Positions 1 to 29,969 of a DNA stretch of 39,341 nt are shown piece by piece; the stretch's first letter is position 1; every line of letters starts with the position of its first letter. Below the pieces are notes generated by a model, which saw only the letters and a list, made by a program, of their open reading frames with translations, did no database searches and had not been told where the DNA came from. The stretch spans positions 1-39,341 of the IMG/VR virus record IMGVR_UViG_3300044994_000190. One strand, 5' to 3'. The stretch is from a virus. Both the position numbers and the translations under genes were made by a program.

Positions 1-174
1 ATTGAGGATTGTCGCCGTGCCGCACCCGGCCACGGAACCAGAGCGGCGCGATCATTCGCGGCCGACACTCGATGGGGCACCAACTGACGACGCGCCAGCC
101 GCCGTGCCGGCGCTGCTCGGCGTACAGCACGTGCCCGAGCACGTTCCTGAGGCGCGAGCGGCGCCACATCAGGT
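1..174. repeat. Terminal redundancy, left copy
   Basis: These 174 bases recur in the same orientation at 39168-39341. The first 127 are identical. Four substitutions follow, at 128, 140, 158 and 170. The copy is best read as overlap of the ends of a circular assembly. Because all four changes fall at silent third codon positions of the gene on the minus strand, they look like natural variation and not read error. Confidence 0.9.
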
Positions 175-250
175 AGCCCTCCCGGCCCTTGCGCACCCGG
201 CGCACGTACAGGCGCAAGGCGAAGAAGACGCAGTTGCTGCGGCGATGCAT
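1..250 (-). CDS. Small basic protein, 83 aa, C-terminal end across the contig junction
   Basis: The frame opens with ATG at 250, three bases after the Rz stop and with a purine-rich GGGGAAG upstream. It runs 83 codons to base 1 and ends CAA-T. The stop is supplied by 39166-39168 at the other window end, so the gene is whole only in a circular genome. The product is rich in Arg, Trp and aromatics (for example WRRSRLRN and GGWRVVSWCP) and has no clear membrane segment. I do not recognise the family. It lies directly downstream of Rz/Rz1 in the lysis block, but nothing seen gives it a lysis role. The four base differences from the right-end copy are all silent, which supports real coding. Confidence 0.7.
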   Translation of the reverse strand, partial: MHRRSNCVFFALRLYVRRVRKGREGYLMWRRSRLRNVLGHVLYAEQRRHGGWRVVSWCPIECRPRMIAPLWFRGRVRHGDNPQ

Positions 251-253
251 GGG

Positions 254-739
254 TCACTTCCCCACCCCCGTCAGCGTGTCGTAGGCTCGCTCGCAGGCGG
301 CTCCGGCGGCTGCGGCCCGGTCAGCATAGTCTCCCAGCTCGACAAGGCGCGCTGCGCACCGTCCGAGCACGTCGGAGAGCACCAGTCCGGGGCCGGCGGC
401 TGGCGCGCTTCCATCGGCAGCGGCGGCAGGCGGGGCTGCACACTCGGCACCGGCACGGGCGGCTGCGTCGCGCAGCCGGACAGCAGCAGCATCAGCACGC
501 TGGCGAGCAGCAGCGGCAGCGCGGGCCTGATCGCGTGCCGCTCGAGCCAGTTCATCCATCGCTCGGGCATGCCGGGCCTCCGTTTCTCGTGCGTCCTGCT
601 CGGCGCGCAGCGCGGCCTGCGTGTAGGCGGCGCGCAGCGCGTCCAGCTCGGCCTGGGCGTGCGAGGCGCCCGTGCGGTAGCCAGCGGCGAACACCACTGC
701 CGCCGCGATCGCCGCGCCGATCAGGTACAGGTGCATCAC
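254..739 (-). CDS. Rz: Rz-like i-spanin
   Basis: The 161-residue product starts with a hydrophobic segment (about residues 4-20, MHLYLIGAAIAAAVVF), then a long Ala/Arg/Glu-rich coiled coil (about 25-100) and a C-terminal helical part. This is the layout of inner-membrane spanins. A second frame inside the gene encodes a proline-rich lipoprotein, the classic nested Rz/Rz1 pair. Together the pair spans the periplasm and fuses inner and outer membranes in the last step of lysis. Start may be GTG at 739, overlapping the endolysin stop as GTGA, or ATG at 736. The similarity looks closest to DUF2514-type spanins, but this is judged by eye. Confidence 0.85.
   Translation of the reverse strand: MMHLYLIGAAIAAAVVFAAGYRTGASHAQAELDALRAAYTQAALRAEQDARETEARHARAMDELARAARDQARAAAAARQRADAAAVRLRDAAARAGAECAAPPAAAADGSAPAAGPGLVLSDVLGRCAARLVELGDYADRAAAAGAACERAYDTLTGVGK
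271..570 (-). CDS. Rz1: Rz1-like o-spanin lipoprotein, nested in Rz
   Basis: The 99-residue frame lies wholly within Rz in another frame. It has a signal peptide with hydrophobic core LPLLLASVLMLLLSG and a lipobox LSGC (Cys33). The mature part begins ATQPPVPVPSVQP and is proline-rich, as in o-spanins. After lipid attachment the protein should sit in the inner leaflet of the outer membrane and bind the Rz ectodomain. The full nesting, lipobox and proline content together make this call strong. The mature part of about 67 residues is somewhat longer than in lambda Rz1. Confidence 0.88.
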   Translation of the reverse strand: MPERWMNWLERHAIRPALPLLLASVLMLLLSGCATQPPVPVPSVQPRLPPLPMEARQPPAPDWCSPTCSDGAQRALSSWETMLTGPQPPEPPASEPTTR

Positions 740-1473
740 GTCCAGCCGCTCCTGCGCTGCTTCCAGCGCCAGTACACCGTCGTGCCGCCCGTCACCAGCA
801 GCACGACGCCCAGCACCGCGCCGGGCGACACGCCGAGCGCCGATGCCATCTCGACGGCATCCTTGAGCACCGGCCGCACGCTGTCGAACGCCGAGCCGGC
901 CAGCGCGAGCGCGCCGGTGGCGAGCGTGACGACGCCCGACTGCTGGATCGGCGACTGGACGAGCGACGACTCGCTCACCACTGCCTGCGGCATGCGCACT
1001 GCTTCGTCATCGCGCAGGTACAGCGCCGCCTCGGCCGCGCGTCGGCTCGTGAGTCCAGGCAATTCGACGAGGGCGCCGTTGACGCGCGCCTTGTTCCACA
1101 ACGAGAACGCCCGCGCGGCGGCCTGCGTGTCACCTGCGTTGTGCAGGCGCAGCACGCTCGAGCGGCGCAGCCCTTCGAGCCCGATGTTGTAGGCCAGGCT
1201 CACCAGTGCGCCCAGCTCGTTCGCCGTTGCCGGGCGGGTCAGCATGTTGCGCACCTGCGTCGTGTAGTGCGTGAGCGAGTCGCAGAATCGCCGATCGGCC
1301 TCCTCCTGCGTCCAGACGGTCTCGGGGCCAACGCCGTCAGTCTCGCCCCATCCGCACGTCCACACGCCGGCGGGGCAGCGGTAAGCCTTGAGCCGGCACC
1401 CTTCGCGCTCTGCGATCAGCGCGACAGCCTCCCGAGTGATCGGCCAAGGCAACGACGGGTCGGGCAGCTTCAT
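736..1473 (-). CDS. GH24 endolysin (lysozyme) with C-terminal membrane segments
   Basis: The 245-residue protein has an N-terminal GH24 lysozyme domain (about 12-160). The motif EGCRLKAY...CPAGVWTCGWGET contains Glu24, Cys33 and Thr39, the E-8-(D/C)-5-T spacing of phage lysozymes that cleave the MurNAc-GlcNAc bond. A second conserved block, ALVSLAYNIG, follows. There is no N-terminal signal or SAR segment, so release should depend on a holin. The C-terminus (about 180-240) adds two hydrophobic stretches, VVTLATGALALAGSAF and PGAVLGVVLLVTGGTTVYW, ending in a basic tail, so the enzyme may be tethered to the inner membrane or have holin-like ability. Start is ATG at 1473 with an AAGGAGG-like site upstream. 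Confidence 0.9.
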   Translation of the reverse strand: MKLPDPSLPWPITREAVALIAEREGCRLKAYRCPAGVWTCGWGETDGVGPETVWTQEEADRRFCDSLTHYTTQVRNMLTRPATANELGALVSLAYNIGLEGLRRSSVLRLHNAGDTQAAARAFSLWNKARVNGALVELPGLTSRRAAEAALYLRDDEAVRMPQAVVSESSLVQSPIQQSGVVTLATGALALAGSAFDSVRPVLKDAVEMASALGVSPGAVLGVVLLVTGGTTVYWRWKQRRSGWT

Positions 1474-16891: not shown

Positions 16892-16896
16892 GCGCC

Positions 16897-17490
16897 ATGC
16901 ACCTGATCGGCATCACTGGCCTGGCCGGCGCCGGCAAGGACACCGCGGCGCGCTACCTGTGCCGCCGCTACGGGTTCGTGCCGGCGAGCTTCGCCGGCGC
17001 GCTCAAGGAGATGTGCCTGGCCTGGGCAGAGTACGTGGGCGTCGACCACGCCCACTTCACCGAGCCGCGGCTCAAGGAGCAGCCCATCCCCGGCTTCGGC
17101 TTCAGCGCCCGTCGCATGATGCAAACGCTCGGCACCGAGTGGGGCCGAGCGCTCATGCCCATGCTGTGGATCGTCGGCCTGCAGCGCCACCTGGGGCTGC
17201 ACGATGGCGGCTCGTCCATCCACGACCGCATCGTCATCAGCGACTGCAGGTTCCCCAACGAGGCCGAGTGGGTAGCCGGGCAGGGCGGCGTGCTGGTGCG
17301 CGTGCGGCGCGACGTGGCCCCCGTCCACGCGCACGAAAGCGAGCAGCACGCCGCCGCGCTGCCCGTGCAGCACGAGCTGCACAACGTCGGCAGCGTGGGC
17401 GCCCTGCACGTGCAGATCGACGTGCTCATGACGCGGTTGGGCATCGACGAGCGCGACCCCGTGTGCGACGACGAGGCGCAATCGTGGTGA
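16897..17490 (+). CDS. Deoxynucleoside monophosphate kinase
   Basis: The 197-residue protein opens MHLIGITGLAGAGKDTAARY, with a P-loop GLAGAGKDT (8-16). It continues with SFAGALKEMCLAWAEYVGVD, the block typical of phage dNMP kinases, and later QTLGTEWGR and IVISDCRFPNEAEW. Such enzymes phosphorylate dNMPs to dNDPs and supply precursors for phage DNA synthesis. All key regions are present and the length fits (about 200-250 residues). The last codons overlap the GTG of the next gene. Confidence 0.9.
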   Translation: MHLIGITGLAGAGKDTAARYLCRRYGFVPASFAGALKEMCLAWAEYVGVDHAHFTEPRLKEQPIPGFGFSARRMMQTLGTEWGRALMPMLWIVGLQRHLGLHDGGSSIHDRIVISDCRFPNEAEWVAGQGGVLVRVRRDVAPVHAHESEQHAAALPVQHELHNVGSVGALHVQIDVLMTRLGIDERDPVCDDEAQSW

Positions 17491-17996
17491 GCGCGCGCCT
17501 TGGCACCACCCGCGCCTTGCGCGAACTGGCCGCGCGGCACGAGGCCGAGGGCATCACCGCAGCGTGGGCCGCAAGCCAGGTGGGCGTGAGCGTCGAGTGC
17601 GCCTCGAAGCTGCTGTTGCAAGCGGTGCACAAGCACTCGATGCACCGCGTGCGCGGCGCCGAAGGCCGTTGGCTGTACTTCGCGCAGCGCGAACACGCGC
17701 TGCGCTACGCCGAGCGCACCGGCCTGGCGTATGACGAGCGGCCCCCGCGCGTCAGGGCGCCGCTCGAGCGCCAGCCGCGGCGCGGCACTGGCGCGGCGCT
17801 GCAGCCTCCCACGGTGCTGCCCGTGTGTGGCCCGGCGCACCTGCCTGGCGAGCCCGTCATCACCGAGCACACGCGCATCGTGCGCGCGGCCGCGCCGGTG
17901 GACGCGCGCTACGCCCCCGATCGCCGCGAGCGCGTCGTCGATGCCGCGCAGTGCCGCGACTGGGCCAAGCACGCCATGCGGGAGGTGGCCGCATGA
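17487..17996 (+). CDS. DNA-binding-like hypothetical protein, 169 aa
   Basis: GTG at 17487 overlaps the kinase stop; GTG at 17484 is an equal choice. The N-terminus has a helix-turn-helix-like pattern (ITAAWAASQVGVSVECASKL) followed by a wing-like segment (MHRVRGAEGRWLYFAQREHA). The second half is Arg/Pro-rich and probably disordered, with a last ordered stretch, ERVVDAAQCRDWAKHAM. It may be an early regulator or replication accessory factor. No family recognised. Confidence 0.6.
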   Translation: MSARLGTTRALRELAARHEAEGITAAWAASQVGVSVECASKLLLQAVHKHSMHRVRGAEGRWLYFAQREHALRYAERTGLAYDERPPRVRAPLERQPRRGTGAALQPPTVLPVCGPAHLPGEPVITEHTRIVRAAAPVDARYAPDRRERVVDAAQCRDWAKHAMREVAA

Positions 17997-18214
17997 TCGG
18001 CCGCACCTACAAATTGCCATCGTGGCGCCTGGTGCGCGTGCTCGAGCTGCTGCGCGACCAGCGCGGCCACGTGCTGGCATGCGCCTACGTGCCCAGCCTC
18101 GGCGCGCCCGCGCCGACCGACGCCGACCTCATGCTGCGCCGCACATGGCTGATCGAGTACGGCTGGCGGCTGTACGGCGAGCGCACCGTGCAGCGGCAAA
18201 GCAAGGACGCCTGA
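17993..18214 (+). CDS. Small winged-helix-like hypothetical protein, 73 aa
   Basis: ATG overlaps the preceding stop (ATGA). The product MIGRTYKLPSWRLVRVLELL is basic, and its second half (LMLRRTWLIEYGWRLYGERT) could form a helix followed by a strand pair. It precedes the excisionase-like gene. The spacing LRDQRGHVLACAYV...YGWRLYG hints at a winged helix, but this is weak. Function unknown. Confidence 0.55.
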   Translation: MIGRTYKLPSWRLVRVLELLRDQRGHVLACAYVPSLGAPAPTDADLMLRRTWLIEYGWRLYGERTVQRQSKDA

Positions 18215-18216
18215 CC

Positions 18217-18573
18217 ATGCTCACCGCCGCCGACGTCGCCCGCCAGCTCGGCCTGAGCCGCCGCAAGGTCTACGACCTGGCGCACAGCGGCGCGCTGCCC
18301 GCGTACCGCTTCGACGGTGCGGTACGCTTCGACCCGGCCGACGTTGCCGCCTACATCCAGCGCTGCCGCGCCAAAACGCCATGCCCGTCTACTTCGACCG
18401 CGCCCGCCGGCGGTGGCGCTACGAGTACGACCGCCGCATTGACGGATGCCGACGCCGCGTTACGAAGCTACTTCCGGCGTCGTGGAGTCGAGCCCAGGCC
18501 GAGGCCTACGCCGCCGAGCACGACAAGCGGCTGCACCTCATTGCAACTGGTGCCGTCAGGCCCGAGCCGCTGA
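18217..18573 (+). CDS. xis: Excisionase-like HTH protein
   Basis: The product begins MLTAADVARQLGLSRRKVYD and continues with ALPAYRFDGAVRFDPADVAA, a textbook HTH_17 (MerR/excisionase-like) domain in about 55 residues. The rest of the 118-residue frame overlaps the integrase start by 193 bases and is Thr/Pro/Ser-rich, so the functional protein may effectively be the first 60 residues. It should bend attP DNA and steer the integrase towards excision. The place directly before int fits. An alternative role as a transcription regulator cannot be excluded. Confidence 0.78.
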   Translation: MLTAADVARQLGLSRRKVYDLAHSGALPAYRFDGAVRFDPADVAAYIQRCRAKTPCPSTSTAPAGGGATSTTAALTDADAALRSYFRRRGVEPRPRPTPPSTTSGCTSLQLVPSGPSR

Positions 18574-19331
18574 TCGCACAGGCCGTGCTGCTGTACCTGC
18601 AGCACCGCGCCCCGCACCTGAAGAACCGCGCCAAGCTCGAGCGCGACCTCGCCCTCATCCAGCCCTGGTACAGCGGGCGGCGCCTAGCCGAGCTGCCCGC
18701 CGTGTGCCGCCAGTACGCCGCCCAGCACGCAACCACGCTCGCGCCGGCCACCGTGCGCAACCGCCTGGCGTACCTGACCGCCGCGTGCCGCTGGGCCTGG
18801 AAGCACCACGGCATGGGCGAGCACGACCCGGCCGAGCGCGTCACGCTGCCGCCCGTGCGCAACGAGCGCCACCGCTACCTGACGCGCAAGCAGGTCGTGC
18901 GCATCGCGCGCACCATCACCCATCCAGACGTGCGCGCCGTCGTGCTCGTGGCCTACTACAGCGGCATGCGCCTGAGCGAGTGCCTGCGCGCGCAGCCGCG
19001 CGAAGGCGCGTGGCACCTCGAGGACACCAAGAACGGCGACCGCCGCAGCGTTCCGATCCACCCCAAGGTGGCGCAGTACGCGCGCCTCTGGCCGCCGGCG
19101 TGCTCGGCGCGCACCGTGCAGTCGTGGTTCTTGTGGGCGTGCGAGCAGCTCGGCCTCGAGGACGTGCGTTTTCACGACCTGCGCCACGCCGCGGCCAGCG
19201 CGATGGTCAACGCCGGCGTGCCGCTGTACACGGTCGGCGCCGTGCTCGGCCACCGGGCGGCGGCGAGCACTCGGCGATACTCGCACCTGGCCACGCAAAC
19301 GCTGGCCGAGGCCATCAAGCGCATCGGCTGA
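18381..19331 (+). CDS. int: Tyrosine-type integrase
   Basis: The 316-residue recombinase begins MPVYFDRARRRWRYEYDRRI, an arm-binding start common in phage integrases. The catalytic residues are all visible: Arg197 in GMRLSE, Lys217 in TKNGD, His265 and Arg268 in FHDLRH, His291 in LGHR, and Tyr300 in RRYSHL. It joins attP to the host tRNA-Leu gene. The stop is 99 bases before the attP core. The start lies inside the excisionase-like frame without a strong ribosome site, so coupled translation is likely. Confidence 0.97.
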   Translation: MPVYFDRARRRWRYEYDRRIDGCRRRVTKLLPASWSRAQAEAYAAEHDKRLHLIATGAVRPEPLIAQAVLLYLQHRAPHLKNRAKLERDLALIQPWYSGRRLAELPAVCRQYAAQHATTLAPATVRNRLAYLTAACRWAWKHHGMGEHDPAERVTLPPVRNERHRYLTRKQVVRIARTITHPDVRAVVLVAYYSGMRLSECLRAQPREGAWHLEDTKNGDRRSVPIHPKVAQYARLWPPACSARTVQSWFLWACEQLGLEDVRFHDLRHAAASAMVNAGVPLYTVGAVLGHRAAASTRRYSHLATQTLAEAIKRIG

Positions 19332-19332
19332 C

Positions 19333-19349
19333 GGGTGTGTGGGAAGAAT
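19333..19349 (+). repeat. Arm-type direct repeat, left
   Basis: GGGTGTGTGGGAAGAAT recurs exactly 180 bases later at 19513-19529. The two copies flank the tRNA-like core, so they are probably arm sites bound by the integrase N-terminus. After the 17 identical bases both copies go on with similar sequence (TTGACCACC here, CTGCCACACC there). Confidence 0.8.
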
Positions 19350-19430
19350 TTGACCACCAGCACTCGAAACAGCCCATTTTTGCCACCCACGCACCTGGGT
19401 CCGCACTCTGAGCACGCAGCGCGCGGGGCG

Positions 19431-19483
19431 CTCAAAATCCCCCGCCGCAAGGCGTGCCGGTTCGAGTCCGGCTCCGGGCACCA
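19431..19483 (+). other. attP core: 3' part of a tRNA-Leu(CAA) gene
   Basis: The stretch holds an anticodon loop CTCAAAA, a long variable arm (CCGCCGCAAGGCG), a perfect T-arm (GCCGG-TTCGAGT-CCGGC, 19456-19472), the 3' acceptor strand TCCGGGC (19473-19479), a discriminator A and CCA (19481-19483). The 5' half of a tRNA is missing: the bases before the loop do not pair properly. This is how phages carry an attachment core that restores the host tRNA after integration. The variable and T-arm sequence resembles tRNA-Leu(CAA) of Burkholderiales. attP lying inside the contig means the excised, circular form was assembled. Confidence 0.9.
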
Positions 19484-19511
19484 GGGGCTAAATCTGGCCA
19501 CGGAAGCCGGT

Positions 19512-19541
19512 GGGGTGTGTGGGAAGAATCTGCCACACCCC
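19512..19541. repeat. Arm-type direct repeat, right, inside a hairpin
   Basis: The second copy of GGGTGTGTGGGAAGAAT (19513-19529) lies in an inverted repeat GGGGTGTG (19512-19519) / CACACCCC (19534-19541) with a 14-base loop. This could also serve as the end of leftward tail transcription, as the tail-appendage stop is at 19544. No T-run follows, so terminator function is uncertain. Confidence 0.65.
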
Positions 19542-19543
19542 CG

Positions 19544-20188
19544 TCACGCCGACCCCTTGATCAGCCCCGCCGCCACGAGGTCAGCGCGCAGCTGATTCAC
19601 CAGCGTCTTGAGCGCGTTGAGCATGTCGCGCTCCGTCGTCGTGTACGTCGCGCCGGCCGTCTGCGTGACGGCCGCCTGGTTGGCGCTCGCCGGGCGCACG
19701 ATGGGCGTCGCGCCCCAGAAACCCAGCTTCTCGGCCGGGTCCGTGCCGATGCGGCTGCCCGTCACCGTGCCGAACTGCAACGCCTTGCCCTCGTTGATGA
19801 CGACGTTCTGGGTGAGGACCGATCGCGCATCGACGACGTTCGTGCCGTCGCAGATCAGGTGCGCCGCGCAGTACGCGGGCACGACCTGCCCCGCGCCGCC
19901 GACGGGCCTGAACGTGCAATTGGCCCCCGTGTCGTTGACGACGATCCAGTCGCCGGTGCGCGCCGGGAACTGCACGATGTAGCCGGCGCTGGGCGACCCG
20001 TACAGGTTGATCTGACGCACCACCGTTTGCGCGGCCGTCAGCGTGATGGTGCCGCCGGCCGTGACGTTTACGGCCGTGCGCCCCGCGCACACGTCGTCGA
20101 TCTGCTGCAGCGCCTCGTTGACCGTCACGTGCGCCTGCGCCTGTCCTTGTTCAAGCAGCGTGATGCCAAGGCGAGAAGTGGTTGCCAT
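19544..20188 (-). CDS. Tail appendage protein with DUF2793-like N-terminus
   Basis: The 214-residue product begins MATTSRLGITLLEQGQAQAH and VTVNEALQQID, the characteristic start of DUF2793-like phage tail proteins. A beta-rich middle follows (GGTITLTAAQTVVRQINLYG). The C-terminus has QTAGATYTTTERDMLNALKT and a helical LVNQLRADLVAAGLI, a frequent ending of short tail-fibre proteins. It is the last gene of the tail block and probably attaches to the tail tip. No enzyme motif. Confidence 0.78.
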   Translation of the reverse strand: MATTSRLGITLLEQGQAQAHVTVNEALQQIDDVCAGRTAVNVTAGGTITLTAAQTVVRQINLYGSPSAGYIVQFPARTGDWIVVNDTGANCTFRPVGGAGQVVPAYCAAHLICDGTNVVDARSVLTQNVVINEGKALQFGTVTGSRIGTDPAEKLGFWGATPIVRPASANQAAVTQTAGATYTTTERDMLNALKTLVNQLRADLVAAGLIKGSA

Positions 20189-20200
20189 GTTGCCGTGTCC

Positions 20201-22420
20201 CTATAGCGTGGCCGTGGCCCACGGGCTCACGGCGTACTGCCCCACGCGCCGCACGCGCATGCTCACGCTCGCCTGCGGCGCCCCGAAATCCGTCGTCTGC
20301 TGCGCAGCGGTGTACGTCCACGACGTGCCATTCACCTGCACGCTGCGCACGACGGTCGTGCCGTCGAGCACGTGCAGCTCGTGCAGCGCCAGCGGATCGT
20401 CGCGCGCGTCCACGCCGCCGTCTGCCAGCTCGGTGCCCACGCGCGAGCGCTCGAACCACGTGATCGTCAGGTCGCCGCCGCCGTCGCGGCTGCCCCGCAC
20501 GTGTACCGGCGACCACGGGCGCACGCTGCCCGTGCCGATCGTGTACGTGCGCGCGCTGTGCGGCGTCGCGCTGCCGGCTGGCACGACGCGGAACATGCGC
20601 GTCGACCCGATCGCCGACACGCCGACCGGCACGAACACCGCCGACGACATGAGCACGAACCGCGCGCCCGCGCCCCACGCTTGCATCAGATGCTCGGTGC
20701 CGCGCCGCCCGCGCAGCAGCCGCGACAGCCGGTACGTGCTGCCGCCCAGGTGCTGCGCCTGCCCGAACTGCACCAGCTCGTCGCCGATGAGCGCGAGGTT
20801 CGCGCCCGCCCACAACGCCTGCGACGTGGCCGATTGCAGCGTGCCGCGCACGATCTGCACGTCCACGGTGCCGGTGTCGAATCGGTACGCGCCGGCCGAC
20901 GGTGCGGCCAGCGCGCTCACCGTCTGCCCGATGATCGACGGCGTCGCCATCGCATCGACTGCGCTCCACGTGTCGCCCGCGTCGATCGACGCCTCCAGCA
21001 CCGCGCCGCGCCAGGCCGTGCCCGTGCCCGCGGCGGCCCACCAGAAACCGCCCGTCTGCGCCTGCGCGTCGGTGAGCGGCGGCGCATCGAACACGTGCAG
21101 CGTGCCCACACCGAAGTCCGCCGGCTGCTGCCCGACGTAGTTGCCGCTGTCGCCGCCGTTGCCCTCGCCCGTCAGCACCGACGCGCGGTACGCCTCGCCC
21201 TCGCACTCCAGCGCGCCGTTGGCGCCCACGGTGATCTGCGTCAGCCTCACCGTATGCGTTCGCGTCGGCGTGACGATGCGCACCACGTCGCCCGGCTCCA
21301 AGTACAGGTACTTGGGCGGCAGCCGCAGCGGCCCGAACTGCACCCGCGACACGACGCCGCGACGCAGCAGCGCATCGCACGCAGCGCGCGCCGCCTGCGC
21401 CGACCACGTCGCGATCACGTCGATCTCCAGCGTGCCGACCGCGCCGCCCGTTTGCAGCGACGCCTGCTGCACCGACACCTGATAGTCGCGCGCCAGGTCC
21501 AAATAGCGCACGCGCACCTCGCGCGGCAGCGCGTCCTCGCGCACACGGCGCACGGGCAGCACCGCGTCGCCGGACAGCAGTTCGCCGTGATCGATCGTCG
21601 CCGCGATGGTGTTCGTCTCGATCGGCCGCACCGCGAGTCGCTCGCCCGTGTTGACCAACTGCAGCGACAGCGCGGCCGTCCACGCCTCGATCAGCTGCGC
21701 AGACGAGCCCGCGCCGATCGCGAGCCCGTCGAACTCGTGCACCGCTTGCGTGACGTCGATCTCGTCTGGCTGCACGCCGTGCCGCTGCATCAGCTCGGAC
21801 AGCACGTCGGCCATGACGGCGGGCGCGTCGGGCGCGCCGCGCGCCAGCTCCACCTCGATCTGCGGCAGCCGCCGCCCGAACTGATCGACGGGCAACTCAC
21901 TCACGTACAGCACGCAGCGCCCGCGATACGCAGGCGTGTTGCCCACGCCCAGCCGCGCTTGCATGATCGCCGACGGCGCCTGCGTCGGCCCGCCCGGCGC
22001 GAATTCCCACGCGCCGCCGCCTTCGAACTCGCCGCTCAGGTGCAGCTCGCCGTCCGGCGCCTGCCAAAGCAGCTTCTTGTCGCCCCAAATGCGCAGCGGG
22101 CGCAACTGCGTGTGCCCCGCGCACAGGAGCGCCGCGAACGTGCCGTAATACTGGTACGTGGTCGTCGTGATCGTCGAGCCCTTGCCGGCGCTCTGCTTGT
22201 TGACGTTGACCTCTTCGCGCAGCGGCGCCGCCCAGATGATGTTGCCGCCAACGCGCGCGCGGCCGTGCACGACGGGGATCGGCGCGCCGTACTTGCTGCC
22301 GACGACGTTCAAGTCGTCGAGGCGCGGCCCGGCGTTGTTGAAGTCGGGCGCCGTCGCATAAGCCACCGCGGCGTTGATCGCTGTCGTGGCCAGCAAGAGC
22401 GCGAAGCTGCCTGGGTCCAT
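20201..22420 (-). CDS. Tail hub / tip protein, GTA-type
   Basis: The 739-residue protein starts MDPGSFALLLATTAINAAVA and LDDLNVVGSKYGAPIPVVHG, then NIIWAAPLREEV and YYGTFAALLCAGHTQLRPLR. This is the conserved N-terminus of gene-transfer-agent-like and gpJ-like hub proteins (phage tail protein family PF13550 by my reading). The middle has insertion and beta domains. The C-terminus contains a fibronectin-like segment (WTYTAAQQTTDFGAPQAS). It forms the tail tip through which DNA leaves. It follows the NlpC/P60 gene, as in gene transfer agents, but lacks the large TIM-barrel part that GTA homologues carry. Confidence 0.87.
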   Translation of the reverse strand: MDPGSFALLLATTAINAAVAYATAPDFNNAGPRLDDLNVVGSKYGAPIPVVHGRARVGGNIIWAAPLREEVNVNKQSAGKGSTITTTTYQYYGTFAALLCAGHTQLRPLRIWGDKKLLWQAPDGELHLSGEFEGGGAWEFAPGGPTQAPSAIMQARLGVGNTPAYRGRCVLYVSELPVDQFGRRLPQIEVELARGAPDAPAVMADVLSELMQRHGVQPDEIDVTQAVHEFDGLAIGAGSSAQLIEAWTAALSLQLVNTGERLAVRPIETNTIAATIDHGELLSGDAVLPVRRVREDALPREVRVRYLDLARDYQVSVQQASLQTGGAVGTLEIDVIATWSAQAARAACDALLRRGVVSRVQFGPLRLPPKYLYLEPGDVVRIVTPTRTHTVRLTQITVGANGALECEGEAYRASVLTGEGNGGDSGNYVGQQPADFGVGTLHVFDAPPLTDAQAQTGGFWWAAAGTGTAWRGAVLEASIDAGDTWSAVDAMATPSIIGQTVSALAAPSAGAYRFDTGTVDVQIVRGTLQSATSQALWAGANLALIGDELVQFGQAQHLGGSTYRLSRLLRGRRGTEHLMQAWGAGARFVLMSSAVFVPVGVSAIGSTRMFRVVPAGSATPHSARTYTIGTGSVRPWSPVHVRGSRDGGGDLTITWFERSRVGTELADGGVDARDDPLALHELHVLDGTTVVRSVQVNGTSWTYTAAQQTTDFGAPQASVSMRVRRVGQYAVSPWATATL

Positions 22421-22426
22421 TGCGTG

Positions 22427-22840
22427 TCACCTCCAGCGCCAAATGCCAGCGATGCGATCCAGCCACAGCGGCGACATCTGCACGATGCGCACGCCGTGCC
22501 CGTATGTCGCGTGGATCATCTGCGCGTCCTCGAGCGCGACGGCCAGATGTCGCGGCGCGTCGTAGATGCGCATCAGGCACACGTCGCCCGCTTGCAGCGG
22601 CGGCTGCGCGCGCTCCAGCAGCGGGCTCGCGTCCAGCTCGCGCGGCAGCACGTGCGCGCCGATGCGCAGCGAGTAGCCCACCATGTCCGTGTGCGGCTCG
22701 ATGCCGCACTCGCGCAGCGCGACGATCAGCAGCCCGACGCAGTCGACGCCAGCGCGCGAGCGCCCGCCCGTGTGCCACGGCACGCCCTGCATCGAGCGCA
22801 ACACAGACAGCAGCTGCGGCACGTCCACGCGCGTGCTCAT
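22427..22840 (-). CDS. NlpC/P60 tail-tip peptidase
   Basis: The 137-residue enzyme shows GVPWHTGGRSRAGVDCVGLL with the catalytic Cys34, then APRHLAVAL with His98. His110 (MIHATYGHGV) is a candidate third residue. This is the NlpC/P60 layout of tail-assembled cell-wall peptidases (gene-transfer-agent gp14, lambda gpK C-terminus), which cut peptidoglycan cross-links during DNA entry. Its ATG overlaps the end of the DUF2163 gene (ATGA). Length fits the family. Confidence 0.93.
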   Translation of the reverse strand: MSTRVDVPQLLSVLRSMQGVPWHTGGRSRAGVDCVGLLIVALRECGIEPHTDMVGYSLRIGAHVLPRELDASPLLERAQPPLQAGDVCLMRIYDAPRHLAVALEDAQMIHATYGHGVRIVQMSPLWLDRIAGIWRWR

Positions 22841-23682
22841 GACTGCTCCACGGCCGGCGCCGCCAGCAGGTCCATGCCCGGCACGTCCGGCTCGCCCTGG
22901 AAGTTGACGACGTTCGCGAACACGTCGCGGCACGTCGCGCGCGTCTTGTTGCAGCCGGCCGTCAGCCGCACGGAGTCCCCGACCGCCGGAAGCGTCAACG
23001 GCGCGACGTACAGCGTCAGCGTCAGCCCCGCCCACGCACGGATCTCCGTCTTGAGCCCGGCCGCTGCGCCCGTGAGCACTTCGAGCACGCCGTTCGCGTA
23101 GGTGGCGGTGCCCGGCAACTGCGACGGCCCCGTGACCGTGATCTGATCGTCGCCGGTGACGGCAGCGACCGTGTACGTGTGCCGCCAGCCGCTCATGCTC
23201 ACGCGGCACCGATCGTCGCCAAGCTGCGCGCGGCACGTCGGCGTCGTGACCTCGACCACCGTCGTTTGCAGCATTTGCGACAGCCCATTGCATTGCATCA
23301 CGTAGCGATCGTCGTCGATCACGATGTCGCCGACCGTGCCCAAGGCCAGCGGGATCGGCGCGATGTCCTGATCAGCGAAGCCCACCATCACCGCGACGCG
23401 CGCGCCGTCGTACTTGCCGTTGAGCACGTCGTCGCGCGTGACGACTTCGCCGAACAGCCCGACGCAATCTGCGTTCTCGACGGCGGTGCCCACGCGCAGC
23501 CGCAGCGCGGAACGCTCGATCGCCCCGGTGGGCGCATACGTGTGCCCGCCGGCGACCACGGCGCGGTCGCAGTCGGTCAAGCGCACGACCGTCGCATCGC
23601 GCCGCGTGATGCGCCACAGCGTCACCAGCGACGTCGCGCGATCGGCCAGCGCCTCGAGCTGTTGAGCGCTGAGCGCTTTCAC
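22837..23682 (-). CDS. DUF2163-type tail protein
   Basis: GTG at 23682 overlaps the stop of the large fusion gene (GTGA). The 281-residue product starts VKALSAQQLEALADRATSLV and TLWRITRRDATVVRLTDCDR. Next are YAPTGAIERSALRLRVGTAV, the DUF2163 N-terminal signature, and a C-terminal part with Cys-containing CRAQLGDDRC and CNKTRATCRDVF, as in BR0599-like tail proteins. In gene transfer agents the homologue (gp13) sits at the tip between the distal tail and hub. The conserved order around it supports the same role. Confidence 0.9.
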   Translation of the reverse strand: MKALSAQQLEALADRATSLVTLWRITRRDATVVRLTDCDRAVVAGGHTYAPTGAIERSALRLRVGTAVENADCVGLFGEVVTRDDVLNGKYDGARVAVMVGFADQDIAPIPLALGTVGDIVIDDDRYVMQCNGLSQMLQTTVVEVTTPTCRAQLGDDRCRVSMSGWRHTYTVAAVTGDDQITVTGPSQLPGTATYANGVLEVLTGAAAGLKTEIRAWAGLTLTLYVAPLTLPAVGDSVRLTAGCNKTRATCRDVFANVVNFQGEPDVPGMDLLAAPAVEQS

Positions 23683-26600
23683 GCGCGCACCTCCACCAGC
23701 GCGATCGTCCCCGCGTCGAACAGCAACTGGTCGCGCGTCGTGCGCGTGACGACCTCGGCGGGCAGGTAGTCGACGTCGAACCGCACCTGCACGTCGAACT
23801 CGAACGACGCGCGCACGACGACGCCGGCGCCCGGTGGCGTGACGAACGACACCAGCCCCGTGCTGCTGTTGAGCGTCCACCCAGACGCCTGCGGCACGCC
23901 GTTGAGGCTCACGCTGACCGTGCCCGGCACCGGCTTGGTGATCTTGCGCACGAACTCGTGCGCGCCGTACACGTAGCGCTTCACCAGCTGGAACGTCGTC
24001 GTCGTGCCGTTGCCGATGCCCAGTTGCTGATCGCTCGCGCGGTAGTCCGACCAGTCCTTGTAGCGGAACGAGCGCCAGCGACCACGCGCAGCCATGAACA
24101 GCGCGCGCACCGCGTCGAACTGCTGCTGCGTGCGCACCGCGAGCGACGCGTCGTAGCGATGCAGCGGCATCGTCCACCGGGCGTTGCGCATCGAATCGCC
24201 GCTTTGCGTCTCCACGATCGACGTCGAGAACTGCGGCCCGCCCGTGCTGCCGCGCGAAACGTCCACCGGGAATCGCTCGTCCATGAAGTCCATGTCCTCG
24301 TCCCTTCCGATCTGCCTCGTGGCTGGCAGAAATTCCTCGATGTCGCCGTCGTCCAGCTTCCACACGCCCACGCCGCCGAACCAAAGTTCGGCCGTGCGCT
24401 GCGCGCGGTCGAACGTCAGCGGCGTGCCGAACCACGCGCTGCGTCTGCCGTCGGTCCAGTGCGCTTCGGTGTCATCGACGTCGATGCGCCGCCCGTAGGC
24501 GAGCGCCTCGGCGATGCCGCGGTGGTAGTCGATGTACTGCGCATCGCCAGGCTCCTGCGCGTCCCACAGGTGCCCGAACGCGCGCGCGCCGCACAGCACG
24601 CGCGGCCAGAACGGCTCGGGCACCACCGCGCGCACGTACTCGTACACCGCGTCCCAAAACCACTGCGGCGCGGCGGGCGCCGGATCGCCCCAGGGGCCTG
24701 ACTCGGTGTACGACATGATCTTGACCGCGTCGCACACCTTGCACAGCGCGCCCAGATCGCACCAGCCCGTCCAGGCCGGGTCGTCGTATGCGGTGCCCGT
24801 GATCGCCGGCGCCGTCGCGTGCAGCAGCTTGCCCGCAGCGTGCATCGCAGCCGCGAGCTGCGCGTAGAACGCCGTGGCTGCCGCGCGCGAGCTTGCCGGC
24901 AGCCCCTCCAGGTTGCAGGTGATGCCGTCCCAGCCGCCCGAGACCGCCAGCGCGACGATCTGCGGCACGTACACGGCCGGGTTGTTGACCACGTGCGCGC
25001 CGATCGTCGCGTCCGGCTCGCCCGTGCCCAGGTTGTTGTTGATGATGAGCAGACAGCGCACGCCGCGCGCCTGCAGCCACGACTTGTCGTCGGCGTAGGT
25101 CGTGCCGCTATACGTGCCGCCGTCGTTGATCGGGAACGGCACGATGCCGCCCGCGCCGTCGAACCCGTAGGCGTCGAACGCCACGTAGTCGAGCGTCTGT
25201 GGCCGCGCGCGCACGCTGGCGTTGCCGGCCGGGTCGGCCTCGATCGACCCCTGCCAGCGCACGCCGCGATGCCGCACGTCGGCGAACAGCAAGCCGCTGT
25301 ACGCCAGCAGGTTGTTGCGGCTGTCCGCCGGCGGCTGCGTGCCGTAGACGAGCCAGCGGCCCAACGCCCAGCGCGTGCGCCGCAGCGCGGGCTCGCGCAG
25401 CTCGCCGTCGCGCACGTTGCGGTACGCGGCGATGGTGTAGCCGTCGGTCAGCCCGCGCGACGCGAACAGCGCCGCCAATTGCGCGTCGATGTCCAGCCAC
25501 GCAGGTCGATCCTCGACGACGCCGGTGCCCGCCGCGTAGTACGACCCGAACGGGTAGATGACCTGGGTGGGCGCGGGCAGCGCAGGCAGCATCGACGACA
25601 CGTAACCCACGACGACCCTGCGCACGCCCCAGCGCGTGCGCTGCTCGGTGCCCACCGTCGGCCCGCCGTTGACCGTCTCGATGACCAGCACGTCGCCGGC
25701 CTGCACGGTGTACGGCTGCACGTCGAGCGCCTGCCCTTTGGTGATGCGCCAGATCGGCGCCAAACCGACGGGCGACGCCGTCGCGCTTTGCATCACCGCG
25801 ACCGTCACCGTCACGCTGGCGCCCACCGCATCGGGGCTCATCAGGATGCCGTCCGGCGTCGTGCCGTAGGTGCCCGGCAGCACGTAGTACGTGCGCGGCG
25901 ACAGCGGCAGGTACTCGCCGGTGCCCGGGTCCATCTCCGCGTCATAGTGCCGTGCATACTCGCCCTGCGCGTCCGTCACCGACACCACGTCCACGTAAGC
26001 CTCGCCCGGCTGCATGTCCACGCTGACGATGCCCTCTGCCGGCACCACTTGCGGTGAGCGCACTACGTTTTGCATCTGCCCGACGAGCAGCCGGAACGTC
26101 GCCGGATAGCTGCGGTCGAGCGGCTCTTGCGGCAGCGGCGCGCCGCGCGGCTGTCGATACGGGTCGGCGTCGCCGCCCTTGATCATCTCGGGCGGCCCGA
26201 CCGCGATGCGCACGTAGCGCATCGTGCGCCCGATCGCGCCGTCGAGCGGCACGACGGCCGTATACCGCCCCGGGTTGGCCCACCCGATGGGCTTCCAGCG
26301 GCTGTAGCCGGCGCGCTCCCACGCGACGACCTCGCCCCATTGCACGCGCGGCAACTCGCCCACCGCCGCCAGGAACGCATCGATGTCCGCGCCGATGTAG
26401 TCCAGATACTCGGCCGTGGTCGCCTGACGGCCCGTGCCCGTGGCCAGAATGATCGCCGGCACGACGGGCCAGCGGCTGTTGGCCGGATAGTCGATGTACT
26501 GCCAATAACGATCCGGCGCGCCCTGCGAGCCCTGCGGGTACAGCCCGCGGCACGTCGTCGTCGCGCGAAACGCCGTGTCGTTGGCCGTCGGCACCGCGAA

Positions 26601-27524
26601 CAGCAGCGCCACGCCGTCGCCCGCGTTGAGCGTCTGCCACGTCATTTCGAACGGCACGTTGGCCGTCACCGCGAACGGCGTGCTGAGCGCCAGCGTGAAG
26701 AATTCCCGCTCCACCCACTGCGCGCGCGTTTCGTACTGCTTCGGCGCGATCACGTCGTCGAACACGACGGTGGAGCCCACCGTCACGCGCACCTGCGCGT
26801 CGTAGCCCGCGCCGCTGGGCTTGCTCAGCGCCATGAACAGCCGCAGCGTCGTGATCGTGCCGCTGATGCGCGGCGTGATGCGCAGCGTCGTCGTGATCGG
26901 CGTCGCGCCGTCGTAGGGGTCGGTGCCGAACAGCGGCACGCCCAGCGTCGTTTGATCGACGAACGAGTAGTCCCAGTACCAGCGCGTGTCGCCCGTGGGC
27001 CGATACACGACGTCGCCGTCGTCGATCCAGCACGGGCGCTCGAGCACGGGCCCCACGTCCACGCCGCCGCTGCCGTCGGGCAGCAGCGTGAGATGGTGGA
27101 TGTTGTGCGTGTGGCACATGAGTTCGACGAGCCCGCTGGCCGCGTACTCGTAGATTTGCGCCCACGTCAGAAACCCGTCGTCCGGGTCGCGCACGCCCAG
27201 GCGCCGCGTGATGAGCGCCAACCCGCACGGCACGCCGCGCTCGATGAGCCACGGCACGACGAGCCGCACCGTGTCGAGCCCGTCGTCGAAGTGCAGGCAC
27301 GTCACCGGCTCGTCGAACGACAGCGCACCGGCGCGCCACGCGGCGTACTCGCTAGGCTTCACGAAGCGATACCCGGCATCGAGCATCGTCTGCACGTGCG
27401 CCTTGATGTCGGCGACAGCCTCGCGGAACACCAGCGCATCGGCGCGGCGCGACACGCACCCGTGCAGGCACAGCACCGTCGGGTACACGCGGCGCTTGAG
27501 CGCTGCGCCCAGGTACGCGCTCAT
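23679..27524 (-). CDS. Three-part tail enzyme: PgaB-like deacetylase, GH18-like barrel, DUF2460
   Basis: 1281 residues. The N-terminus (about 12-150) is a polysaccharide deacetylase. HFDDG (78-82) supplies Asp80/Asp81, GFLTWAQIYEYAASGLVELM precedes HTHNIHH, and His138 and His143 keep the five-residue spacing of PgaB's zinc ligands. A beta-rich segment (about 205-320) follows, then DIDAFLAAVG...WGEVV, resembling the distal part of the same deacetylase fold. Residues about 630-1065 form a GH18-like barrel with WDGITCNLEGLP (Glu873), KIMSYTESGPWGDP and GVGVWKLDDGD. Residues about 1085-1281 are DUF2460, the distal-tail domain (FPVDVSRGSTGGPQFSTSI). It probably sits at the tail tip and strips or cuts a surface polysaccharide. 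Substrate unknown. Confidence 0.86.
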   Translation of the reverse strand: MSAYLGAALKRRVYPTVLCLHGCVSRRADALVFREAVADIKAHVQTMLDAGYRFVKPSEYAAWRAGALSFDEPVTCLHFDDGLDTVRLVVPWLIERGVPCGLALITRRLGVRDPDDGFLTWAQIYEYAASGLVELMCHTHNIHHLTLLPDGSGGVDVGPVLERPCWIDDGDVVYRPTGDTRWYWDYSFVDQTTLGVPLFGTDPYDGATPITTTLRITPRISGTITTLRLFMALSKPSGAGYDAQVRVTVGSTVVFDDVIAPKQYETRAQWVEREFFTLALSTPFAVTANVPFEMTWQTLNAGDGVALLFAVPTANDTAFRATTTCRGLYPQGSQGAPDRYWQYIDYPANSRWPVVPAIILATGTGRQATTAEYLDYIGADIDAFLAAVGELPRVQWGEVVAWERAGYSRWKPIGWANPGRYTAVVPLDGAIGRTMRYVRIAVGPPEMIKGGDADPYRQPRGAPLPQEPLDRSYPATFRLLVGQMQNVVRSPQVVPAEGIVSVDMQPGEAYVDVVSVTDAQGEYARHYDAEMDPGTGEYLPLSPRTYYVLPGTYGTTPDGILMSPDAVGASVTVTVAVMQSATASPVGLAPIWRITKGQALDVQPYTVQAGDVLVIETVNGGPTVGTEQRTRWGVRRVVVGYVSSMLPALPAPTQVIYPFGSYYAAGTGVVEDRPAWLDIDAQLAALFASRGLTDGYTIAAYRNVRDGELREPALRRTRWALGRWLVYGTQPPADSRNNLLAYSGLLFADVRHRGVRWQGSIEADPAGNASVRARPQTLDYVAFDAYGFDGAGGIVPFPINDGGTYSGTTYADDKSWLQARGVRCLLIINNNLGTGEPDATIGAHVVNNPAVYVPQIVALAVSGGWDGITCNLEGLPASSRAAATAFYAQLAAAMHAAGKLLHATAPAITGTAYDDPAWTGWCDLGALCKVCDAVKIMSYTESGPWGDPAPAAPQWFWDAVYEYVRAVVPEPFWPRVLCGARAFGHLWDAQEPGDAQYIDYHRGIAEALAYGRRIDVDDTEAHWTDGRRSAWFGTPLTFDRAQRTAELWFGGVGVWKLDDGDIEEFLPATRQIGRDEDMDFMDERFPVDVSRGSTGGPQFSTSIVETQSGDSMRNARWTMPLHRYDASLAVRTQQQFDAVRALFMAARGRWRSFRYKDWSDYRASDQQLGIGNGTTTTFQLVKRYVYGAHEFVRKITKPVPGTVSVSLNGVPQASGWTLNSSTGLVSFVTPPGAGVVVRASFEFDVQVRFDVDYLPAEVVTRTTRDQLLFDAGTIALVEVRA

Positions 27525-27790
27525 TCACCGGCCACCCACACCGCCGCGCGCTTGCCCACCAGCGCGGCGGGAAACGTCAGCGTGACCTGCGTGTACACCT
27601 CGCCGAGCCCGGCCACCGTCTGCGGCGCGGCGCTGACGCCGACCTCGGTCGGCGCGCCGTAGACGGTGCACAGCACCACCGGCTCGTTGACCAGATACCG
27701 CCCCGGCGGGAACGACAGATCGATCGACGTCGAGGTAATCGAGATGACGACGGCCAACGGCCGACGAAACGGCTGCCAATCGGCGCTCAT
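27521..27790 (-). CDS. Small tail-block hypothetical protein, 89 aa
   Basis: The product is beta-rich (AVVISITSTSIDLSFPPGRY, TVYGAPTEVGVSAAPQ). Both its start and stop overlap neighbours by four bases, between tape measure and the large fusion enzyme. In related phages the gene after the tape measure encodes a distal-tail or adaptor protein; here it is very short. It could be an adaptor that docks the fusion enzyme. Family unknown. Confidence 0.6.
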   Translation of the reverse strand: MSADWQPFRRPLAVVISITSTSIDLSFPPGRYLVNEPVVLCTVYGAPTEVGVSAAPQTVAGLGEVYTQVTLTFPAALVGKRAAVWVAGE

Positions 27791-29736
27791 GCGACCGCCC
27801 GCACGCGCGCCAAGCGGCGCGAGATGTCCACCGCCATCTGCCGCGCCGATGAGCGGAAACCGTCCGCGTTGCCGCCGGTCGCGTTGACGTTGATGGTGAT
27901 CGCGACGCCGTCGCCACTGCGCCGCAGCTTGTGGTTGGGCTCGATCGTGCCGCTGCTGCGCGGCACGAACAGCTCGGGCCCGCGCTCACCGACGATGTAC
28001 GCGCGCCCGGCCGACACCGGGCCGCCCTCGGCGCGGAATCCGCCGAAGATGGCCGTTGCCAATGCGGCCAGGTTACCGCCTTGGCCTTTGCCGAACAGCG
28101 CATTCATCAAGTCCGCCGCCGCTGCCCGGGCGACCATCTGCGTGAGCATGTCGGCAAACGACTGCAGGATGTTGTCGAAACGACCGCGCAGGATGTCGGC
28201 GAGCCCTGACCCGAGCACATCCTCGATGCGCTCGGCCGCCTGCTCGGCGAGCTTCTGCATCTTGTGCGCCGCGTCCTCGGCCGCCTGCGGCAGCGCGCCC
28301 AGCGCCTCGTAGGTCTGCCACAGCGCCTCGTTGAGCATGCGGATTTGCACCGGGTCGCTCGCGCGCTCGAGCGCGCCGCGCAGCAGCTCGACGTCTTGCT
28401 GCGCGCGCTGCAGCTTGGCGGTGTCGGTCGCGGCGAGCAGCGATTCGATGCGCTTGTTGGCTTCGGCCGCCTGCTGCGCGGCGGGGTCGAGCGCCTCGAG
28501 CGCCTGACGCGTGCGCTCGATGGCCTCGACCACCGCCGGCGCGCCGCCCGATTCGGCGCGCAGACGGTACAGCTCCTGCAGCTGCGCCGTCAGCGCGGCG
28601 ATGCGCGCGGCGTCGGTCTGCTCCAGCGCGCGGATCGCATCGACGGTGGCCGGGTCGATGGCGGGCGCAACCAGCTTGGGCGCGCGCTCGGTCGCGGCGC
28701 GCGGCGCGCGGCGTGCCGGCTCGGGCACCGTCAGCGATGGACGCTCGTCGGGCGTGGCGGGCGTGGCCGGCGCGTACAGCTGTTTGAGCCGCTCGCTGGC
28801 CTGCGCCGACTTGCGCATCATGTCCTCGAGCTGACCCCGGATCTCGCGCACGCGCTGCGCCGCGCCGTCGATGCCGGCCTTCTCGCGTGCCGACCAGATC
28901 TCGAGCTGTCGGCCCAGGAGCTCGACCGCGTTGGCGTAGGCGCGCACCTCGCGCTCGGCCGCGCCGCGCTCGCCGCCGCTGAACAGCGCCGCCAGGCCGC
29001 CTTCGCGCAACAGCTCGAAGGCGCGGTTGAGCGCCGGCACCAGCTGGCCCGCGAACACGCGCGACAGGTCTTCGACGTTGCGGCGCAGCTGCGCGAACTC
29101 CTTGTTCAGGCGGTCGGCCTGCGCCACCTGCTCGGCGGTGACGGTGCCAGCGAACTGCGTCTGCTCGGCCAGCTCGCGCAGCAGCGGCCCGGCCTCGCGC
29201 ACGCTGCGGCCGAACAGCTCCTGGACCGCCCGCGCCTTGTTGCCGTCGTCGGCAAAGCGCGCCAGCGCAACGGCCGTTTCGCGCAGCGCCAGCGCCGGGT
29301 CTTGACGCCGCAGCTCGGCGGCGTCGAGCCCGAGCTGCTCGAACAGCGCCGCGATGTCGCGGTTGCTGCCGGCCTCTTTCAGCGCGTTGTTGAACTTGAC
29401 GAGCACGCCCGCCACGTCGTCGAGCGATCCGCCCGCGTTGCGCGCGACGTTCTCCAGCGCCGAGACGTTTTCGATGCTCGCGCCCGTCGCCTCGCTCAGG
29501 TCTTTGATCGCCAGCAGGCCGCGGTTGACCTGGCCGACGAACGCGGCGATGGCGCCGACCGCGGCGAAGGCCGCCGTCACGCCGGCGCCGATGCCGCGCA
29601 GCGTGGCGGCGACGGCGCCAAAGCGCCCCTGCATGTCGCGCGCGGTGCGCTCGACCACCTCGCCGGCGCGGCGCATGTCGGCCTGGAACTGGGCGATGTC
29701 GCCCACCAGCTTGACGCTGAGCGTGCTCAGGCTCAC
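27787..29736 (-). CDS. Tape measure protein
   Basis: GTG at 29736 overlaps the preceding stop (GTGA). The 649-residue product starts VSLSTLSVKLVGDIAQFQAD and is helical throughout, with coiled-coil regions. A hydrophobic stretch (VTAAFAAVGAIAAFVG, about 50-70) follows the first coil. The C-terminal RAEGGPVSAGRAYIVGERGP and ELFVPRSSGTI block is a hallmark of tape measure proteins. It sets tail length, roughly 100 nm if the usual 1.5 Å per residue holds, and is ejected at infection. It follows the chaperone pair, as expected. Confidence 0.94.
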   Translation of the reverse strand: MSLSTLSVKLVGDIAQFQADMRRAGEVVERTARDMQGRFGAVAATLRGIGAGVTAAFAAVGAIAAFVGQVNRGLLAIKDLSEATGASIENVSALENVARNAGGSLDDVAGVLVKFNNALKEAGSNRDIAALFEQLGLDAAELRRQDPALALRETAVALARFADDGNKARAVQELFGRSVREAGPLLRELAEQTQFAGTVTAEQVAQADRLNKEFAQLRRNVEDLSRVFAGQLVPALNRAFELLREGGLAALFSGGERGAAEREVRAYANAVELLGRQLEIWSAREKAGIDGAAQRVREIRGQLEDMMRKSAQASERLKQLYAPATPATPDERPSLTVPEPARRAPRAATERAPKLVAPAIDPATVDAIRALEQTDAARIAALTAQLQELYRLRAESGGAPAVVEAIERTRQALEALDPAAQQAAEANKRIESLLAATDTAKLQRAQQDVELLRGALERASDPVQIRMLNEALWQTYEALGALPQAAEDAAHKMQKLAEQAAERIEDVLGSGLADILRGRFDNILQSFADMLTQMVARAAAADLMNALFGKGQGGNLAALATAIFGGFRAEGGPVSAGRAYIVGERGPELFVPRSSGTIEPNHKLRRSGDGVAITINVNATGGNADGFRSSARQMAVDISRRLARVRAVA

Positions 29737-29969
29737 CGCTCGGCCTCCTGCGGCGCGCGGTAGTGCTGGATGGCCTCGAGCCGCCACAGCAGGCCCTCGA
29801 GGTCACGCACGCCCAGGTACTCGCACACCAGCGGCAGCCCCGCCCAGTCGATGCCGCCCATGCCGGTGCGCAGCAGGTTGTAGGCGGTGATGGCCAGCGT
29901 GTCCATCGCGTCGGGCTCGGGTGCGTCGTCGTGCTGGATGCCGTGCTGGCGGTCCAGCACGGCGGTCAT
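29733..29969 (-). CDS. Tail assembly chaperone, second part (T-like), reached by -1 frameshift
   Basis: The frame MTAVLDRQHGIQHDDAPEPD continues ITAYNLLRTGMGGIDWAGLP and ends PQEAER. It could start alone at ATG 29969 (ATGA overlap). It also lies exactly in the -1 frame relative to the upstream chaperone after the GGGAAAC signal, so it is likely made mainly as a G-T fusion of about 193 residues, as in lambda. The part binds tail tube protein during assembly on the tape measure. Confidence 0.82.
   Translation of the reverse strand: MTAVLDRQHGIQHDDAPEPDAMDTLAITAYNLLRTGMGGIDWAGLPLVCEYLGVRDLEGLLWRLEAIQHYRAPQEAER

Follow-up and report, generated by a model that had tools for sequence, protein, structure and literature searches.

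The phage tail depolymerases known to us mostly consist of one enzyme, a lyase, hydrolase or O-esterase, carried on a spike. In other siphophages, the lactococcal skunaviruses among them, 'evolved' distal tail proteins (Dits) are enlarged by polysaccharide-engaging domains, and carbohydrate-binding inserts in them help the phages adsorb to hosts that make exopolysaccharide (PMC10688798). PgaB and IcaB (TIGR03938 and TIGR03933) are N-deacetylases of poly-beta-1,6-N-acetylglucosamine (poly-beta-1,6-GlcNAc, PNAG), and PgaB joins its deacetylase to a glycosidase of family GH153. Here we describe a gene in the metagenomic IMG/VR virus record IMGVR_UViG_3300044994_000190, all 39,341 bases of which (the window) were analyzed, whose 1281-residue product combines a predicted PgaB/IcaB-type deacetylase, a predicted glycosidase domain of the GH18 fold and a DUF2460 distal tail domain. 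In the reading that we consider probable, this product is an 'evolved' Dit with enzyme domains: at adsorption it removes N-acetyl groups from a surface polymer of the N-acetylglucosamine type and probably also cuts that polymer. Enzyme-bearing tail proteins and evolved Dits were already known, and the skunavirus examples have carbohydrate-binding inserts only and belong to phages of Gram-positive bacteria, whereas here two enzymes lie N-terminal to another Dit family. This deacetylase-GH18-DUF2460 version is apparently undescribed: searches of the literature on PgaB, chitin deacetylase, GH18 or PNAG in phage tails, and on DUF2460 with glycosidases, yielded no description recognizable as such a protein.

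The gene is coding-like in its GC content at codon positions 1/2/3 (0.67/0.51/0.93), and its start overlaps an 89-aa frame upstream through an ATGA. An earlier model reading of the letters alone (the sequence-only reading) had placed its borders exactly and had proposed that it attaches a PgaB-like enzyme to the tail; the tail attachment is borne out. By sequence, the C-terminal part is the tail-tip ring protein DUF2460: PF09343 is matched completely (residues 1078-1280; model positions 2-205 of 205; E 2e-65; 220.5 bits against a cut-off of 30.4), TIGR02217 is matched above its cut-off (E 1e-55; 188.5 bits against 136.65), and the nearest solved structures are the distal tail proteins 6tba and 8gtc. 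The gene also occupies the DUF2460 (Dit) position, between the tape measure and hub genes, in a minus-strand series of major tail protein, tape measure, 89-aa frame, fusion gene, hub, NlpC/P60 peptidase and Rcc01698-like genes. Gene-transfer-agent-like siphophage tails have this module order. The DUF2460/Rcc01695 distal tail protein of the gene transfer agent and of vB_DshS-R4C has the same complete domain and lies in the same tape measure-DUF2460-hub-NlpC/P60-Rcc01698 order, and in the Rhodobacter phage RcCronus the order is tape measure, DUF2460, minor tail, peptidase and hydrolase. Such proteins are usually stand-alone, in frames of 204-301 aa, while the window version is preceded by 1077 enzyme residues. 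Stand-alone DUF2460 proteins of ~216 aa (RcCronus gp14, our locus L061, and others) are annotated 'glycoside hydrolase'; only the distal tail domain is apparent in them, and the label is likely a propagated misannotation.

The evidence for the deacetylase comes from motifs, profiles and predicted structures of residues 1-1078 (predicted local distance difference test, pLDDT, 74.7; predicted template modeling score, pTM, 0.69) and 1-741 (pLDDT 76.5; pTM 0.77). Two motifs, HFDDG (residues 78-82) and HTHNIHH (138-144), had been singled out by the sequence-only reading for their PgaB-like zinc-ligand spacing, and alignment to solved PgaB/IcaB-type structures, which read SHTDNLH, HTYDLH, HSHNLH and HTWNSH at motif 2, agrees with this, the metal pair H138 and H143 being five apart. 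Across the six frames of the window, H[ST]xx[ILMVF]H is found a single time, at this very motif. In a family alignment and profile built from the window and from relatives in viruses and metagenome-assembled genomes (MAGs), D80, D81, H138 and H143 are invariant in 20/20 aligned members, which derive from Pseudomonadota, Thermodesulfobacteriota and Bacillota sources and from viral contigs, cellular members included. A later motif, YPFG (657-660), is kept by every member reaching it, again including the cellular ones, the sole exception being FPFG in L038, a very divergent gene of a Bacillota prophage. Among NCBIfam models, the N-terminus matches the PgaB type only (TIGR03938, residues 16-144, E 6e-10), at 38.0 bits, far below the curated equivalog cut-off of 321.9, and PgaB was the best NCBIfam match for the deacetylase part in each of the seven members scanned. 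Against solved structures, the family profile retrieved PgaB, IcaB and BpsB only (E 1.5e-12 to 5e-7). The general profile PF01522 (Polysacc_deac_1) does not match the window protein and matches L038 at 53.2 bits (cut-off 23.1).

The predicted structure contains a CE4-like barrel, so that the absence of such a barrel, which the sequence-only reading had named as counting against it, did not materialize. The 1-741 model superposes on Escherichia coli PgaB (residues 43-307) with Z 22.4 and a root-mean-square deviation (rmsd) of 2.6 over 247 residues, and on IcaB with Z 22.0. Since the PgaB superposition spans model residues 11-741, the barrel is complete but discontinuous, and in the model it is built from three pieces opened by two inserts (approximate borders in Table 1). 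The domain borders of the sequence-only reading, 1-420 for the deacetylase and 630-1065 for the glycosidase, thus needed revision: the deacetylase runs in its three pieces up to residue 741, and the glycosidase occupies about 752-1067. Both inserts are predicted beta-sandwiches. The first resembles phage tail-tip beta domains of Bxb1, Douge and phi812 (Z 8.2-8.9, middling and a lead only) and is conserved in cellular homologues; the second resembles carbohydrate-binding modules of the CBM35/CBM6 type, also at middling scores that give a lead only, and is the most variable part of the family. From motifs and model together, the N-terminus is a predicted metal-dependent N-deacetylase of the PgaB/IcaB type.

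The second barrel is a predicted glycosidase domain of the GH18 fold, as the sequence-only reading had also held, with Glu873 as its acid. The model superposes on the Chromobacterium violaceum chitinase 5jh8 with Z 26.5 and an rmsd of 2.7 over 295 residues, with SleL and YdhD close behind, a profile of the region retrieves YdhD from the PDB (E 4e-21), and the window protein matches a solved GH18 structure at E 3e-11. The Pfam GH18 model PF00704 scores the window protein below its cut-off (E 1.6e-4; 21.9 bits against 29.6) and is passed by the relatives L021, L022 and L038. Taken with those to PgaB and DUF2460, the GH18 matches lie far above chance level. Glu873 lies within WDGITCNLEG, at the end of the GH18 DxxDxDxE motif, and it and the Tyr of the MxY motif (Tyr939) are invariant in 15/15 aligned GH18 domains. 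The fold, the acid and MxY are common to SleL, YdhD, YvbX and 5jh8, and the residue at -4 is not Asp, as in YdhD; the window family differs from these enzymes in having mostly Asn for Asp at -2 and in its tail-protein part. In one relative, L028, the motif reads WDGIIATLEQ (L028:2786-3583), with the Glu kept and Thr at the assisting position.

The barrel, the DD and H-x4-H motifs and the joining of a deacetylase to a glycosidase are all shared with PgaB/IcaB or PgaB, yet the window protein has two inserted beta-sandwiches, a tail-protein fusion and GH18 where PgaB has GH153. Alignment of the second barrel to a GH153 region with hhalign gave a probability of 0.4%, and neither Pfam nor NCBIfam scans gave a match to the PgaB C-terminus. 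The capture of a whole PgaB is therefore rejected, and with it the sequence-only description of a PgaB-like bifunctional enzyme; with GH18 in place of GH153, the layout shared with PgaB is convergent or coincidental. The notion that the polymer is de-N-acetylated and then cut also calls for caution. Cleavage by GH18 glycosidases relies on the N-acetyl group that the sugar carries at the cut, which means that the two enzymes would be unable to use the same sugar unit; what fits is a partial deacetylation like that by PgaB.

The most likely substrate, from the deacetylase type and from synthase genes in related genomes, would be a poly-GlcNAc-type exopolysaccharide. A stand-alone, insert-bearing deacetylase with a signal peptide occurs in 3/83 genomes of the Peptococcia, and these are three of only six of the 83 with a PgaC/IcaA-like synthase (hypergeometric 2e-4, for genomes that are close relatives). 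Similarly, the Ca. Adiutrix MAG that holds one of the fusion-bearing prophages, L011, has a PgaC above the cut-off. Some observations weigh against the reading as a whole. By fold alone the CE4 substrates are not discriminated, PplD and Bacillus deacetylases also reaching Z 20-21.5. The three Peptococcia genomes are so closely related that the synthase association counts as one observation at most, and the Rhodocyclaceae MAG with prophage L010 gave no good PgaC match. The PgaB of the Adiutrix MAG itself has lost DDG and the first His. Finally, the residue at -2 from the GH18 acid is Asn in 12/15 members, including Asn871 of the window, Asp in two (L021 and L038) and Thr in one (L028); the Asp found here in classical GH18 enzymes orients the N-acetyl group on the sugar that is cleaved, and Asp-to-Asn mutants of chitinases are weak. 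The Adiutrix PgaB (L056:2484-4103, minus strand) is worth describing in its own right: above the NCBIfam cut-off and with in-frame neighbors, it reads FDVAH for FDDG and SFSHRLH for SHTxxxH, and is probably a dead deacetylase beside an intact PgaC.

Among the alternatives, it is possible, although we think it doubtful, that a different N-acetylhexosamine polymer takes the place of PNAG as the target, such as a Pel-like or chitin-like polymer or a species-specific capsule or O-antigen. Deacetylase-glycosidase pairs serve the Pel system too (PelA), the closest GH18 enzymes are chitinases, and the variability of insert 2 would be expected if the family reads different polymers; set against this, the sequence profiles single out PgaB/IcaB. 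Somewhat further from likely is a scheme in which the GH18 domain mainly binds, lectin-like, and the deacetylase alone is catalytic, so that the tail walks on the polymer through binding of GlcNAc stretches and their deacetylation, in the manner of de-O-acetylating tailspikes that do not cut the chain. The frequent Asn and the single Thr at -2 favor it, as do the chitinase-like lectins with altered motifs (5xep and 1hjv) that share the fold and appear among the structural matches of the GH18 model. Yet lectins usually lose the acid, which together with the MxY Tyr is invariant here, and two members keep the Asp. Furthermore, GH85 glucosaminidases are active with a natural Asn-x-Glu in which the Asn orients the N-acetyl group, so that Asn871 is no proof of inactivity; it may go with hydrolysis that is slow, with a changed mechanism or with binding alone.

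Peptidoglycan is a less likely substrate, and we consider it quite improbable that the protein is a wall deacetylase joined to a SleL/YdhD-like glucosaminidase that opens murein during DNA entry. The nearest solved GH18 relatives do include the spore-cortex enzymes SleL and YdhD, members occur in phages of both Gram-negative and Gram-positive hosts, and the fold score of a CE4 peptidoglycan deacetylase is almost as high (6go1, Z 20.4). But the deacetylase has the motif spacing and profile of PgaB/IcaB, the tail tip already has a wall peptidase of the NlpC/P60 type, and deacetylated murein is usually harder to cut. An assembly chimera or a frame artifact, a possibility raised by the metagenomic origin of the record, can be dismissed as the source of the fusion: eight other divergent contigs, taken from different samples and including two within bacterial MAGs, show the same one-frame domain order, and a second contig shares 13.4 kb with the window without a difference.

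The preferred reading, a distal tail protein that modifies a GlcNAc-type polymer, can be set out as a sequence of steps. Dit proteins assemble into a ring of six, and as many as six enzyme arms might therefore project from the tail tip. Their beta-sandwiches and barrels would engage an N-acetyl-hexosamine surface polymer, most likely of the poly-GlcNAc type; the deacetylase would strip some of the N-acetyl groups, and the GH18 domain would hold, and probably cut, the chain at remaining GlcNAc units. This would bring the tail close to the outer membrane, and there a separate protein, the NlpC/P60 peptidase of the tail, would open the wall. By analogy with evolved Dits (PMC10688798), the purpose may be passage through, or attachment to, the polymer layer.

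The distribution of relatives bears on how such a protein arose. The whole fusion, including DUF2460, was found in nine phage or prophage genes: the window, L004, L007, L008, L010 and L011 (the prophages in the Rhodocyclaceae and Ca. Adiutrix MAGs), L017, L028 and L029. The two-enzyme unit also occurs without DUF2460, in gp23 of Pseudomonas phage PMBT3 (YP_009796574; about 40% identical), in two Acinetobacter phage-plasmids beside terL and holin, in L021, L022 and L023 within tail modules adjoining lysis genes, and in L038 between tail genes and holin/amidase. Its recurrence at the tail end or near lysis genes of unrelated phages is as expected of a movable adsorption enzyme. PMBT3 gp23 is annotated merely as a minor tail protein or peptidoglycan hydrolase, and a term search of the PMBT3 paper found no discussion of it (PMC8421299). 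The deacetylase forms a separate, insert-bearing branch, which also exists alone as the secreted Peptococcia protein (L034 and L035; 35-38% identity over the first 330 residues), which has a signal peptide and, unlike the window protein, neither GH18 nor a tail domain. The two-enzyme unit is thus a deacetylase of the insert-bearing type joined to GH18, not a captured PgaB, with DUF2460 joined in a subset of the phages.

In trees of the two halves, fused and unfused members intermingle, several forks being weakly supported, and the DUF2460 junction was therefore probably gained or lost on more than one occasion. DUF2460 is present in seven of 369 genomes of the class to which the Rhodocyclaceae MAG belongs; the MAG itself has the only fusion, and the others have frames in the stand-alone size range given above. 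L028 is 53% identical to the window in the DUF2460 domain and 38% in the deacetylase part, hinting at module exchange. In the Acinetobacter indicus plasmid pAI02 (L006), annotation begins the two-enzyme gene at the first deacetylase motif, so that its 5' part is missing or its start misannotated. A stand-alone deacetylase gene in a Peptococcaceae MAG (L012:6225-8309) contains an in-frame TAA, with intact relatives in two related genomes (L034 and L035). With L038 as query, mostly pgaB-type genes were retrieved, in phage-labeled records that look like bacterial DNA. A structure search of the viral model library BFVD listed poor matches only (TM-score to query <=0.16), none named deacetylase, an absence that proves little.

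Table 1. Features of the fusion gene and its neighbors in the window
Feature	Position	Strand	Basis
Whole fusion gene, 1281 aa	23679..27524	-	Single open frame; ATGA overlap; whole fusion in eight other loci
Deacetylase barrel, first piece, residues 11-146, motifs 1 and 2	27087..27494	-	TIGR03938; PgaB/IcaB structures; PgaB Z 22.4
Asp80-Asp81 (motif 1, HFDDG), predicted catalytic base and metal ligand	27282..27287	-	Invariant 20/20
His138...His143 (motif 2, HTHNIH), predicted metal ligands with PgaB/IcaB spacing	27096..27113	-	Invariant 20/20; aligned with HTxNLH
Insert 1, residues 147-367, predicted beta-sandwich, tail-tip- or carbohydrate-binding-like	26424..27086	-	Predicted strands, pLDDT mostly 75-97
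Barrel helix between inserts, residues 368-395	26340..26423	-	Model helix 370-393, pLDDT about 90
Insert 2, residues 396-645, predicted beta-sandwich, CBM35/CBM6-like	25590..26339	-	Z 6-6.9
Deacetylase barrel, last piece, residues 646-741, YPFG 657-660	25302..25589	-	YPFG conservation; required for PgaB alignment 11..741
GH18-fold barrel (predicted), residues 752-1067	24324..25271	-	5jh8, SleL and YdhD structures; YdhD profile
Asn871-Leu872-Glu873, GH18 acid and substituted assisting residue	24906..24914	-	15-member alignment
DUF2460/TIGR02217 distal tail domain, residues 1078-1281	23682..24293	-	PF09343; TIGR02217; Dit structures
Tape measure protein gene, upstream of fusion	27787..29787	-	PHROG tail length tape measure matches, E 1e-14
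Baseplate hub gene, directly downstream of fusion	22837..23682	-	PF09931 E 5e-40; PF09356 E 1e-22
NlpC/P60 peptidase gene of tail tip	22427..22840	-	PF00877 E 6e-11
Rcc01698-like central tail-tip protein	20201..22420	-	PF23666 E 2e-26; PF13550 E 3e-23

The virus itself is probably a temperate tailed phage, as the window encodes an integrase (18381-19331, plus strand), a gpA-type terminase, a lambda-type portal and a major head protein. The window carries a direct repeat at its ends (1-174 and 39168-39341; the first 127 bases exact, 170/174 identical with 4 mismatches) and is probably a complete genome with overlapping ends. The major head protein (31973-34021, minus strand, 682 aa) matches both head and head-protease families. 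The identical contig mentioned above, L003 (IMGVR_UViG_3300044993_000158), shares window positions 16291-29724 and is apparently the same phage, and a megablast of half the window against phage genomes gave no match.

Taken more broadly, and as a tentative proposal that we would not yet call probable, the window protein may belong to a tail-tip family common to phages of Gram-negative and Gram-positive bacteria that de-N-acetylates a poly-GlcNAc-type polymer and cuts it with a GH18 domain using Asn in a GH85-like arrangement, an independently built counterpart of PgaB. A deacetylase and a glycosidase together on the distal-tail ring would be a new layout, and the protein is a testable candidate for phage attack on the PNAG-type polymers of biofilms, a widespread matrix with few known phage enzymes directed at it. 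The comparison also corrects the annotation of PMBT3 gp23 as a peptidoglycan hydrolase and of stand-alone DUF2460 proteins as glycoside hydrolases. Finally, the occurrence of Asn, Asp and Thr at the assisting position across the family amounts to a natural experiment on the GH18 mechanism.

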